DNA of 58,844 nt, taken from contig DSCS01000044.1 of the NCBI GenBank assembly GCA_011048995.1, positions 1-58,844 of the forward strand. The letters are read 5' to 3'. Below the pieces are notes generated by a model, which made no database searches, was not told the origin of the DNA, and saw nothing but the letters and a program-made list of their open reading frames with translations. Source of the stretch: Bacillota bacterium. Its GTDB lineage: Bacteria > Macinerneyibacteriota > Macinerneyibacteria > Macinerneyibacteriales > DSCS01. Both the position numbers and the translations under genes were made by a program. This document shows, piece by piece, positions 37,433 to 43,713 of this stretch. Numbering within the stretch: position 1 is the first letter of the stretch; the number at the start of each line of letters is the position of its first letter.

Positions 37433-39183
37433 AGACGCTTCGCCGGGTCCTCATCGCCGATTTGTGCGCACAATCCTTTCATGTGGAAGAACGCCCGGAT
37501 CTCTTTTCTGAATACATCGGAGGAGCCGGAGTCTCCTCGGCTCTTCTCAAAGAATATCAGGGCTGTTCCCCTGAAGGCCCTGCAATCTTTGCCGTAGGGC
37601 CCTTTACAGCCCTTTTTCCCATGGCTTCCAAGACAGTGGCTTCCTTTATATCCCCCCTGACGGGTAATTACGGAGAAAGCCACGCCGGCGGACGCAGTGC
37701 CGTCTCTTTACGCATGGCCGGATACGGAGCTCTCGTCGTACTTGGCCAGGCTCCTTTCCCTCAATATCTTGTTGTAGATGAGGAGGGAGTCCGTTTTGAA
37801 GACGCCCGCTCCTTGTGGGGGATGAAAAACTGCTCCACACCGGCACGGATCATGCGTGAAAAGGAGGGGGGTGCAGGCTTACGCTCCATTTTGCGCATCG
37901 GCCCCGCCGGGGAGAATGGGGTCGCTTACGCCTCCGTGACAACAGAGACCTATCGGCATTTCGGACGAATGGGGCTGGGAGCTGTCTTCGGCAAAAAAAA
38001 ACTTAAAGGGATCGTCTTGAAAGGGGCCCGTGAGACCCCTGTCTCAGAACCGGCTCTTTACAAAACTCTGTATAATGAACTTTATACACAGATGGCCTCT
38101 TCCGATCTCATGAAAAAATATCACGACCTCGGGACTCCGGCCAACATCCTCCCTCTGCATGAGATGGGAGGCCTGCCTGTTTGTAATCTGAAACAAAGAA
38201 CCCTGAGTCCTGACGAAGCGACAAACCTGTCAGGGGAACATTTCGCCGCCCGTTTCCTGAACCGTCGGCTGGCCTGCTCCCATTGCCCGGTAGCCTGCAT
38301 CCATCTGGCGGCTTTACGCCTTGAAGCCCCGTCAGAGCCCTATTTTTATCAGACCTCTTATGTCTCCTACGACTATGAGCTTTTGTATGCCCTGGGGTCG
38401 ATGATCGGAGTTACCGATGCTCAGAATGTTCTCCGCTTGATCGACCGTGTGGAACAATACGGCATGGACGCCATCAGTACAGGGGTAATATTAGCCTGGA
38501 TGACAGAGGCATATGAAAAGGATTTCCTCCCACACGATTTATTCGGAGAAGAGATCCCCAGATGGGGCCATACAGAAGCCTATCTATCCCTCATCGACAA
38601 GATCTGCTTTGATCCGGCGCCCTTTTTTGAAACAGCCCGGAAAGGGTGTGCCGCTTTGTCTGAAACATACGGCGGAAAAGACTTTGCTCTTGTCTTCGGC
38701 AAAAATGAGATGCCGGGATATCATACCGGAATCGGTGCTCATCTCGGGTTTCTTTTGGGCATCCGCCACAGCCATCTGGACAATGCCGGCTATGCTTTGG
38801 ATCAGAAACAGGACAGAGAGGTCTTCTCGTCACCCGATCATCTCGCCCGCGCCCTTTTAAGGGAAGAAGCCTTCCGTCATATTCTCTCTTCTCTTGTCGT
38901 CTGTTTTTTTGCCCGCAATATCTTTGCTCCCGACAAAATCTTACAGCTTTCACAGTCCATAAACATCTCTCTTCCGGATGATCTCCTTCAGAAAGGGCTG
39001 GATCTTTACCGCGCGAAACTCTCCTTCAAAGAAGAACTGGGATTCCGATGGGAGGAGTTGTCTCTTCCCCTCCGTGTGTGTGTTGCAAAGACTCCCGGAA
39101 TACAACCTGACCCGGATTTTGCCCATAAAACACTTGCCGCCGCTCGGGGGTTTCTTAACGATTCTTCTTTTAGCCTCTCCTAA
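37429..39183 (+). CDS. Aldehyde:ferredoxin oxidoreductase (AOR family)
   Basis: The 584-aa protein belongs to the tungsten/molybdenum-pterin AOR family, which oxidises aldehydes to acids and reduces ferredoxin. The cofactor domain shows EYIGGAGVSSALLKEY, GNYGESHAGGRSAVSLRMAG, and GPAGENGVAYASV. The 4Fe-4S ligands are in CSHCPVACIH (Cys283, 286, 290) with a fourth Cys near SSLVVCFFAR. It is slightly short of the usual 600-620 aa. The ferredoxin-like gene upstream overlaps by 4 bp and is its likely partner. Aldehyde substrate unknown. Confidence 0.9.
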   Translation: MKTLRRVLIADLCAQSFHVEERPDLFSEYIGGAGVSSALLKEYQGCSPEGPAIFAVGPFTALFPMASKTVASFISPLTGNYGESHAGGRSAVSLRMAGYGALVVLGQAPFPQYLVVDEEGVRFEDARSLWGMKNCSTPARIMREKEGGAGLRSILRIGPAGENGVAYASVTTETYRHFGRMGLGAVFGKKKLKGIVLKGARETPVSEPALYKTLYNELYTQMASSDLMKKYHDLGTPANILPLHEMGGLPVCNLKQRTLSPDEATNLSGEHFAARFLNRRLACSHCPVACIHLAALRLEAPSEPYFYQTSYVSYDYELLYALGSMIGVTDAQNVLRLIDRVEQYGMDAISTGVILAWMTEAYEKDFLPHDLFGEEIPRWGHTEAYLSLIDKICFDPAPFFETARKGCAALSETYGGKDFALVFGKNEMPGYHTGIGAHLGFLLGIRHSHLDNAGYALDQKQDREVFSSPDHLARALLREEAFRHILSSLVVCFFARNIFAPDKILQLSQSINISLPDDLLQKGLDLYRAKLSFKEELGFRWEELSLPLRVCVAKTPGIQPDPDFAHKTLAAARGFLNDSSFSLS

Positions 39184-39203
39184 AGTGAAACTTTTTCCTG
39201 CAC

Positions 39204-39300
39204 ATGCGGGTCCCATATTTCTAACCGTGAAATGGGGTGTTACATGATTTTCATAGCTATATAAACTTATTTCCGAACACACGAATACAAGGAGGTTTAT
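39204..39300 (+). promoter_or_regulatory. Leader with short uORFs and an SD-sequestering hairpin before the ABC-F gene
   Basis: Two six-codon ORFs occur. One reads MRVPYF (39204-39224). The other reads MIFIAI (39244-39264) and has a GGGGTG SD 6 nt upstream. The stop codon of the second begins a stem: ATAAACTT (39261-39268) pairs with AGGTTTAT (39293-39300), 8 bp with one G-T pair, covering part of the ABC-F SD GGAGG at 39291-39295. An upstream stem (CCCA-TTTC / GAAATGGG, 39212-39236) masks the second uORF's SD. A stalled ribosome on the second uORF would open the main SD, as in known leader-peptide attenuators. Inference, untested. Confidence 0.5.
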
Positions 39301-39301
39301 T

Positions 39302-40885
39302 ATGGCTATGATATCATTTCACGGGATCTCTTTTTCTTATACAATGCCCTATCATCCTGTCTTTGAAGAGTTGACAATGTCAATAGATACCGATTGGAAA
39401 ACAGGGCTTGTCGGCCGAAACGGGCGGGGAAAGACGACTTTTCTGAATCTTTTGCTTCGATCACTAAAACCCCAGAAGGGAACGCTGTCCGTTCCCGAAG
39501 GGTTGTCCCCTGTTCTCTTTCCCTTTCCTGTTTCCGCCCCCGAACGCGATGCCCGTATTATTATCAAAGAGAATATCGCCCCTTTTTCCCGCTTGGAAAA
39601 GACCATGGAAGAGTGCCTCAGTGAAAGCAGTGAAAAATCGCTGGAAAAGTACGGAGAAATCCATTCCCGTTACACCCGGCATAACGGCTACGGGATCGAC
39701 GCCCTCCTTCTGAAGGAGGCCGCTCTTTTAAATATAGACGAAGAACTCCTAAGCAGGCCTTATTCGACTCTCAGCGGGGGAGAACAGACGAAATGCCAGA
39801 TCCTTTCCCTCTTTCTTCATCCTGCGCCTTTTCCCCTTATCGACGAACCAACCAATCATCTGGACCTTAACGGCCGTCAACTGGTTGCGCATTATCTCCG
39901 GTCTCGCCCCAAAGGGTTTTTGTTGGTCTCTCATGACCGCTCTTTTTTAGACGAATCTATCGATCATGTGCTTGCCCTCAATCGCAAAGACAACCGTCTT
40001 TATCATGGAAACTATTCTGTGTATCATGAAGAAAAGAGAAAAGAGGATGAAGAAGAGTTGTCCCGTAACATGCACCTGCACAAAGAGATCACTCGTCTGG
40101 CCACATCATCCCGGCAAAAAGAAAACTGGAGCAAGAAAAAAGAGAAGGAAAAAGTCGGCAGCGGGGATAAAGGAGCGGTAGGAGCACAAGCCGCCAGGCT
40201 TATGAAACGATCCCTGATCATCCGCCGAAGGGCCCTCCGGCATAGGGAAGAAAAGGAAAAACTTCTTAAAAACCTGGAAATTTCTTACTCTTTGAAATTG
40301 AACGTTTCTTCATCCCTTCCCTGTCATATTCTTACCGTTTCTGATCTTTCTGTCTCCTACGGGAATAATCTTGTCTTCTCCGGCATCTCTTTTTCACTAA
40401 GGCGGGGAGAACGTCTTGCCCTTACAGGGCCTAACGGTGCAGGGAAGACCTCTCTTTTAAAAGCGGTTTTGGGAGAGATCCCTTACTCAGGGACAATCCG
40501 CCGTCCCGCCCATATCCCTGTTTCCGTCGCCTCCCAGCATCCTGTCTGGAATCAGGGATCTCTTAAAGAATTGGTAAAATCCGCCGATTTAGACGAGACT
40601 CTTTTCCGAAATGTCCTGGGTATTTTAGGCGTCTCGGGAGAGATCTTTCATCGGCCACTGGAAACATTCAGTCTGGGAGAATTAAAAAAAGTCGAAATGA
40701 GCCGCAGCCTTTGCCGGGAAGCCGGGTTGTTTGTCTGGGACGAACCATTAAACTATTTGGACATCGTCTCCCGCGAACAGATCGAGGAAGCCGTTTCTCT
40801 TTTTCAGCCTACCATTATTTTTATCGAACATGACAAGGCTTTTGTCGAAAAATGCGCAACGGATGCTTTATTGTTAAAGCTTTGA
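39302..40885 (+). CDS. ABC-F ribosome-protection protein, Lsa-like
   Basis: The 527-aa protein has two ATP-binding domains and no membrane segments. The first has DTDWKTGLVGRNGRGKTTFL, LSGGEQTKCQ and LIDEPTNHLDL. The second has GPNGAGKTSLLKAVLG, FSLGELKKVEMSRSL and VWDEPLNYLDIVS. A charged linker of about 80 residues (rich in Lys, Glu, Arg) lies between, as in antibiotic-resistance ABC-F proteins. The N-terminal WKxGLxGRNGRGKTT is close to the Lsa/Vga group that displaces lincosamides, pleuromutilins or streptogramins. SD GGAGG precedes the ATG. Which drug is protected against is not known. Confidence 0.85.
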   Translation: MAMISFHGISFSYTMPYHPVFEELTMSIDTDWKTGLVGRNGRGKTTFLNLLLRSLKPQKGTLSVPEGLSPVLFPFPVSAPERDARIIIKENIAPFSRLEKTMEECLSESSEKSLEKYGEIHSRYTRHNGYGIDALLLKEAALLNIDEELLSRPYSTLSGGEQTKCQILSLFLHPAPFPLIDEPTNHLDLNGRQLVAHYLRSRPKGFLLVSHDRSFLDESIDHVLALNRKDNRLYHGNYSVYHEEKRKEDEEELSRNMHLHKEITRLATSSRQKENWSKKKEKEKVGSGDKGAVGAQAARLMKRSLIIRRRALRHREEKEKLLKNLEISYSLKLNVSSSLPCHILTVSDLSVSYGNNLVFSGISFSLRRGERLALTGPNGAGKTSLLKAVLGEIPYSGTIRRPAHIPVSVASQHPVWNQGSLKELVKSADLDETLFRNVLGILGVSGEIFHRPLETFSLGELKKVEMSRSLCREAGLFVWDEPLNYLDIVSREQIEEAVSLFQPTIIFIEHDKAFVEKCATDALLLKL

Positions 40886-42288: not shown

Positions 42289-42317
42289 TTGACAACACCG
42301 TATCTTTTTGTTAATGT
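42289..42317 (+). promoter_or_regulatory. Promoter of thiC
   Basis: TTGACA and TAATGT are separated by 17 bp, just upstream of the TPP aptamer. Confidence 0.65.
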
Positions 42318-42448
42318 GACACCGCAGGGGTGGTAGAATTACCTGAGATCATACCCTTTGAACCTGATACAGTTCATACTGTCGTAGGGAGCTCATCATC
42401 TTTATTTTCATCATCTTCATCCCTGCAGAGAAAAGAAAGGATGGAGAT
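42318..42448 (+). promoter_or_regulatory. TPP riboswitch with SD-sequestering expression platform
   Basis: The aptamer (about 42318-42393) has the THI-box elements: CAGGGGTG, CTGAGA (42343-42348), ACCCTTTGAACCTGAT (42353-42368) and CGTAGGGA (42383-42390). Downstream, ATCTTCATCC (42413-42422) pairs with GGATGGAGAT (42439-42448), a 10-bp stem that covers the thiC SD. A competing stem pairs GTAGGGA (42384-42390, inside the aptamer) with TCCCTGC (42420-42426). With TPP bound the aptamer keeps GTAGGGA, and the SD stem can form and block thiC translation. Confidence 0.93.
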
Positions 42449-42450
42449 AT

Positions 42451-43713
42451 ATGACACAGTTACAAGCAGCTCAAAAAGGACATATGACACCCGAAATGGA
42501 AATCGTCGCCCGGGAAGAGGAACTTTCTCCCGAAAACCTGCGCTCCCTGGTCAAAGAGGGGCGCGTCGTCATCCCCGCGAATTTGAATCATAAAGGGCTA
42601 CACCCTTTTGGCATCGGTTCTCCGTTAAGGATCAAAGTCAATGCCAATATCGGGACTTCTCCCCAAAACACGGATCTCGACATGGAATTGGCAAAGATCA
42701 AAGTCATTGAATCCTTAGGGGCTGAAGCTCTTATGGATTTGAGTATTGCCGGTGATTTGGACAAGATCCGCCAGGCTGTGATCAAGTCCACATCTCTTAT
42801 GGTCGGAACCGTTCCTATTTATCAAGTCTTAACAGAAAGAACCGACGATGTCGCCTCAATCAGCCCTGAAATGATTTTGGAGACTATAGAGCGACACGGA
42901 AAACAGGGCGTGGATTTTATTACAGTCCACTGCGGCCTGAAACAAGAAGCTCTGCCCCTGCTTGACAAAAGAGTTATGGGAATAGTCAGCCGCGGCGGCT
43001 CTTTTCTGGCGAAATGGATGACAGTCCGAAATGAAGAAAATCCCCTTTACACTCATTTTGATCAATTATGTGACATCGCCCGCACCTATGACATGACATT
43101 GAGCTTAGGTGACGGACTTCGGCCGGGAGCGGTTCATGATGCCACGGACGCCGCCCAGCTCCATGAACTCAAAGTCCTGGGAGAACTTGTTTTACGGGCC
43201 CGCAAAGCCGGAGTGCAGGTCATGGTAGAAGGGCCGGGACATGTCCCGATGTGCGATGTCCAAAAAAATATGGAATTACAACAGGAGTGGTGCCACGGGG
43301 CCCCTTTCTATGTTTTAGGACCCCTGACTATTGACAGCGCCCCCGGTTATGATCATATTGTCGGTGCTATCGGCGGAGCCTGGGCCGCCTATCATGGAGC
43401 CTCCTTTCTCTGTTATGTGACTCCGGCTGAGCATCTGCGCCTCCCGGGCCCCTCAGATGTGCGGGAAGGAGTCATCGCCTCAAAAATCGCAGCCCGCAGC
43501 GCCGATATGGCTTTGGGGATCCCTTCCGCATTACGGCGTGAAGAAGAAATGTCCCAAAAAAGGCACAGCTTTGATTGGGAGGGAATGTTTGCGTTAGCTG
43601 TCGATCCTGTTAAACCTCGCTTGTACAGAGAAAAAAGCACTCATGTCTCGGAGGAGGAGTGTTCCATGTGCGGGGAATTCTGTGCTCTGAAGATGCATCA
43701 GCAGGATAAGTAG
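42451..43713 (+). CDS. thiC: Phosphomethylpyrimidine synthase ThiC
   Basis: ThiC, a radical SAM enzyme, makes HMP-phosphate from AIR for thiamin. The 420-aa short form has the core blocks GSPLRIKVNANIGTS, LGDGLRPGAVHDATDAAQ, MVEGPGHVPMCDV, and the C-terminal cluster motif CSMCGEFCALKMHQ. The SD GGAG lies in the riboswitch-controlled hairpin. Other thiamin genes are not adjacent. It is the only gene in this window with a visible metabolite-sensing leader. Confidence 0.97.
   Translation: MTQLQAAQKGHMTPEMEIVAREEELSPENLRSLVKEGRVVIPANLNHKGLHPFGIGSPLRIKVNANIGTSPQNTDLDMELAKIKVIESLGAEALMDLSIAGDLDKIRQAVIKSTSLMVGTVPIYQVLTERTDDVASISPEMILETIERHGKQGVDFITVHCGLKQEALPLLDKRVMGIVSRGGSFLAKWMTVRNEENPLYTHFDQLCDIARTYDMTLSLGDGLRPGAVHDATDAAQLHELKVLGELVLRARKAGVQVMVEGPGHVPMCDVQKNMELQQEWCHGAPFYVLGPLTIDSAPGYDHIVGAIGGAWAAYHGASFLCYVTPAEHLRLPGPSDVREGVIASKIAARSADMALGIPSALRREEEMSQKRHSFDWEGMFALAVDPVKPRLYREKSTHVSEEECSMCGEFCALKMHQQDK

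Follow-up and report, generated by a model that had tools for sequence, protein, structure and literature searches.

A putative leader-peptide translational attenuator in front of an Lsa-like ABC-F gene

In the cat-86 system, the end of the leader lies within one arm of a hairpin, which the stalled ribosome opens directly. ABC-F genes are established targets of attenuation by upstream open reading frames (uORFs) (PMC9226507, PMC10201436, PMC10314930, PMC12421871). Short uORFs precede cplR (MRI), vmlR (MIN) and lsaA (MAGN), which are ABC-F genes of the lincosamide/pleuromutilin/streptogramin A type, as the gene studied here appears to be; induction has been tested for cplR and vmlR, and hairpins that sequester the Shine-Dalgarno (SD) sequence contribute in both (PMC10201436, PMC9226507). 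The ABC-F gene msr(D) follows the six-codon hydrophobic leader MsrDL (MYLIFM), at whose stop codon erythromycin arrests translation (PMC10314930).

Here we analysed a 58,844-nt stretch of DNA (the window) in which an Lsa-like ABC-F gene follows a 118-nt leader, counted from the AOR stop (39183) to the ABC-F start (39302), and we propose, with a probability of roughly 0.82, that this leader is a leader-peptide translational attenuator. The mRNA from 39225 to 39324 is predicted to form one long interrupted hairpin, in which an outer stem would join ABC-F codons 5–8 to the first bases of the uORF SD and the sequence immediately preceding it, and an inner stem would join the 3' part of a six-codon uORF to the start codon of ABC-F, its SD and its codons 2–3. 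The uORF start codon would sit in the internal loop between the two stems, so that the uORF stays translatable even with the ABC-F start closed off. Drugs that target the peptidyl transferase centre or the exit tunnel would hold a ribosome on the six codons, where it would occupy the 5' arm and free the strong ABC-F SD for initiation. We infer that the leader is transcribed, that the uORF is translated, and that a drug stalls the ribosome there and induces the gene. The features of the locus, compared with G001, another species of the window's genus, are as follows.

39212–39236, plus strand: tentative alternative local hairpin, mutually exclusive with stem A
39225–39235, plus strand: 5' arm of the outer stem (stem A), extending into the first bases of the uORF SD; 10 of 11 pairs present in G001
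39234–39239, plus strand: uORF SD, GGGGUG (GAGGUG in G001), 4 nt 5' of the AUG; position conserved
39244–39264, plus strand: six-codon uORF MIFIAI-stop (MIIIAG-stop in G001); start, SD and length conserved
39251–39268, plus strand: 5' arm of stem B, in the 3' part and stop codon of the uORF, from folds and duplex shuffles
39289–39296, plus strand: ABC-F SD, AAGGAGGU, an 8-nt match kept in G001
39293–39311, plus strand: 3' arm of stem B, over the ABC-F AUG, codons 2–3 and a portion of the SD, from folds
39302–40885, plus strand: Lsa-like, ribosomal protection-like ABC-F gene (527 aa), from profile scores
39314–39324, plus strand: 3' arm of stem A, ABC-F codons 5–8, with a matching synonymous change in G001

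A sequence-only reading of this DNA had recognized the layout of erm and ABC-F attenuators with two leader ORFs; the layout is supported, but only the second uORF counts, and the stems form one long hairpin rather than an erm-style relay.

The ABC-F product scored 414.5 bits against the NCBIfam model ribo_prot_ABC_F in a profile search, passing the cut-off of 380, and its top family model was ABCF_Lsa_all at 503.3 bits; because the latter score lies below that model's curated NCBIfam cut-off of 750, we class the gene from its profile scores as Lsa-like rather than Lsa proper. LsaA (7nhk) was the top match among solved structures, identity to named plasmid Lsa(E) genes was 38.7%, and the product would presumably act as a ribosome protector. 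The second ABC-F gene of the genome (L002, 31% identical) has no comparable leader on inspection. Elsewhere in the window, a TPP riboswitch (Rfam RF00059, 65.3 bits) lies at 42316–42407 on the plus strand, just 5' of an ORF at 42451 that we take to be thiC.

Searches across the genus, family, order, class and phylum, the last sampled by three genomes, returned G001 as the only gene-bearing relative, and viral contigs yielded neither the ABC-F protein nor the leader pattern. The G001 locus is collinear with ~43 kb of the window, and its ABC-F protein is 67% identical. As the sequence-only reading had described, MIFIAI is present with an SD-like motif of its own; the uORF lies 58 nt from the ABC-F start in the window and 59 nt in G001, with a gap of 38 nt between the uORF stop and the ABC-F start. 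For a control set we took, from both strands of the window, all SD-preceded, ATG-led ORFs of 3–20 codons (n = 39): three of these have a start and SD that align with counterparts in G001, and the MIFIAI/MIIIAG pair alone also keeps its length. MRVPYF (39204–39224), which had been taken for a first leader ORF, is readable and was rejected as a second leader; it appears to be a chance ORF, because it lacks an SD and G001 does not have its start codon.

The 8-bp pairing of 39261–39268 with 39293–39300 over the ABC-F SD, noted earlier from the letters alone, is seen in both sequence and folds, but it is incomplete, as 39251–39261 also pairs with 39301–39311 and locks the AUG. Stem A, which the sequence-only reading did not contain, joins CCGUGAAAUGG (39225–39235) to UCAUUUCACGG (39314–39324); it emerges when more coding sequence is folded and is found in the folds of both species. 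The local hairpin at 39212–39236 that had been said to mask the uORF SD can form (−8.0 kcal/mol in the window, −5.4 kcal/mol in G001, these and all other fold and opening energies being in silico values), but masking would be partial because this hairpin competes with stem A. A AGUGAAACUUU block at the AOR stop (39182–39192) is unchanged in G001, and the GUGAAA within it occurs again at 39227–39232; UUUC at 39218–39221 is able to pair with either copy, and other upstream pairing through these elements is possible.

Against dinucleotide shuffles, the hairpin at 39240–39310, a sub-window picked post hoc, beat 200 of 200 (z = −4.65), and the fold of 39180–39310 gave z = −2.56; the G001 leader alone gave weak scores (z = −0.48 and −1.47). 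For the duplex between the uORF segment and the SD/start region, shuffles of the uORF segment that scored equally well made up 0.05% (G000, the window) and 0.95% (G001). Folded independently to minimum energy, the two leaders have 28 base pairs in common. The pair 39233–39316 changed on both sides from U-A to C-G, the coding side being a synonymous Ser TCA to TCG change in ABC-F that matches the leader U to C, and one-sided changes preserve pairing at 39235–39314, 39251–39311, 39258–39304, 39259–39303, 39264–39297 and 39267–39294, SD-side pairs among them. G001 lacks the inner pairs 39260–39302 and 39262–39299 and also the outermost pair of stem A. Because only two species of one genus are compared, the covariation is thin, supportive and not proof, and part of the 3' arms is coding sequence or SD and hence constrained regardless of pairing. 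Nucleotide identity of the leader was dropped as evidence, its 69% not exceeding the 74% of other, crudely defined, intergenic stretches. The sequence-only reading had named the absence of uORF or pairing from relatives as evidence against itself; the uORF and nearly all of the pairing are kept in G001.

Lsa-like ABC-F genes (E below 1e-75) occur in 99 of 396 genomes sampled from the order of a Clostridia genome (G003). Their ~100 leaders contain 29 SD-led uORFs of exactly six codons against 0.96 expected from dinucleotide shuffles, a roughly 30-fold excess among leaders that are mutually related (~25 distinct peptides among the six-codon uORFs), and every other uORF length occurs fewer than ten times. 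In leaders L018–L116 the class often reads [MV]xxISC-stop (also written MxxISC-stop). A looser set of 37, including seven-codon MxxxSC variants, the window and G001, has mostly I, F, L or V at position 4, S (24) or A or T (5) at position 5, and C (27) at position 6. MIFIAI and MIIIAG are likewise SD-led and match the class in length, in the hydrophobic position 4 and in having a small residue (S, A or T) at position 5, but the final C is not matched: they end in AI-stop and AG-stop where the Clostridia consensus is SC-stop. Most of the Clostridia six-codon uORFs lie 150–250 nt 5' of the gene, often with a Rho-independent terminator between. In some leaders the SC codons are RNA-paired (in L041, for instance, TTCTTGC pairs with GCAAGAA, as read from the sequence), and RNA constraint is therefore an alternative to peptide sensing.

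Two of these leaders, L023 and L025, were rejected as direct uORF:SD locks, uORF occupancy giving no clear drop in opening cost. Two others, L029 and L040, carry six-codon uORFs (VKNTAC-stop and MRNITD-stop) only 53–81 nt before the gene, and uORF occupancy lowers the computed start-opening cost from 14.4 to ~7 in L029 and from 11.3 to ~6 in L040; these are possible parallel translational locks. We regard it as conceivable, though on balance unlikely, that a six-codon sensing peptide, M-x-x-[I/F/L/V]-[S/A]-x-stop, is common to Lsa-like ABC-F genes in at least two phyla, wired to terminators in Clostridia and to a compact SD lock here. If so, the small position 5 and a stall at the stop or a late codon would mark it as a defined arrest peptide that responds to peptidyl-transferase drugs, in contrast to a generic start-codon stall. 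The six-codon leader class itself bears on which drugs are sensed; no description of it for Lsa-like ABC-F genes was found in the literature searched, where the reported LsaA leader is MAGN.

Of 102 Lsa-like leaders, 54 have a terminator by a strict scan, suggesting that transcription attenuation is common among the Clostridia relatives. In the window, a terminator scan found no terminator-like site in 38600–39400, and the strict hairpin-plus-T-run scan returned no terminator in the window or G001 leader. Transcription attenuation in the window was rejected on these strict scans, and a weak T-rich site that a looser scan placed at the uORF was unconfirmed. Because no terminator lies between the uORF and ABC-F, output control should be translational, the natural reading here; Rho-dependent termination may also play a part.

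The cost of opening the ABC-F landing site from SD to AUG was 18.9 kcal/mol in the window and 17.0 kcal/mol in G001, the highest summed cost among 29 conserved SD-led starts (medians 9.8 and 9.9, respectively), a mechanically compiled list that includes some non-genes. With any one uORF codon covered by a footprint the size of a ribosome, this cost fell to 4–7 kcal/mol in the window and 5–8 kcal/mol in G001. The mean unpaired probability of the SD in the window rose from 0.19 to ~0.75 only for stalls at codons 5–7; late stalls therefore free the SD best, and most of the opening cost is already gone with an early stall.

That occupancy at any uORF codon opens the ABC-F start also suits translational coupling, in which ribosomes finishing the uORF, whose stop lies within stem B, would open the stem or re-initiate at ABC-F across the short 38-nt gap, giving steady expression that follows the overall level of translation, with no drug switch. 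We consider this improbable: the six-codon uORFs of relatives, mostly so much farther from the gene and with a terminator between, fit stalling, and a strong lock on a resistance-type gene fits induction. Still less probable is a hairpin that acts without a leader peptide, as an RNA thermometer, a protein or RNase site or a means of low expression, with the uORF incidental. A closed start alone could suffice for such an element, the Rfam search of the leader returned no family matches, which leaves room for unnamed elements, and mean pairing of the ABC-F SD alone is unexceptional (rank 16 of 44 gene starts in the window), the exceptional quantity being the energy needed to open the SD together with the AUG. 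Yet no other short SD-led ORF of the window is conserved in start, SD and length, and the uORF shares its length class with leaders of homologous genes, both of which count against an incidental role. Least credible of all is that uORF and pairing are both non-functional, for which the two-species comparison, the AU-rich stems and the weak G001 z-scores leave some space but against which uORF uniqueness, duplex shuffles, the occupancy effect, the opening cost and the common pairs, taken together, argue.

For the leader-peptide attenuator, several drug classes are candidate inducers. Lincosamides, streptogramin A and pleuromutilins cause a start-codon stall in ABC-F leaders of another group (PMC12421871), and the computed footprint effect suggests that such a stall would already open the lock in the window. 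For phenicols and oxazolidinones the favoured penultimate residue is alanine, followed by serine or threonine (PMC8987054), and position 5 of the uORF would supply such a residue with codon 6 in the P site. Erythromycin, which acts on the equally long MsrDL at its stop codon (PMC10314930), is a further candidate.

The leader combines sequence-level hallmarks of cat/erm-type translational attenuators, namely a conserved SD-led leader ORF, an SD/start hairpin overlapping the uORF and no terminator, and has no Rho-independent terminator of the kind that marks transcriptional ABC-F attenuators (msrD, vmlR, cplR and vga type). The likeness to msr(D) that the sequence-only reading had drawn holds for leader length but not for mechanism, as msr(D) works by transcription termination (PMC10314930); MsrD is moreover a macrolide-type ABC-F, whereas the window gene is Lsa-like. 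The cplR, vmlR and lsaA leaders have 3–4 codons where this one has six (PMC10201436, PMC9226507), and cplR and vmlR are also terminator-based, whereas sequestration is the only device seen in the window. Like the attenuator proposed here, cat-86 and ermC have a short leader ORF, a ribosome as the drug sensor, a resistance-gene SD held in a hairpin and no terminator. The two differ from it in that the target here is an ABC-F gene, the leader has six codons, and the lock adds the start codon and an outer stem reaching into codons 5–8; ermC further uses a relay of alternative stems, none of which is evident in the window. The direct opening by a stalled ribosome that characterizes cat-86 is the mechanism we propose for the window, and cat-86 would on this analogy be the best mechanistic comparison. 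The type of switch is already known, and what is unusual is its compactness, with a readily testable lock that needs nothing beyond the start site and the uORF, and its occurrence in a barely sampled phylum, to which it would extend uORF control of ABC-F ribosome-protection genes.
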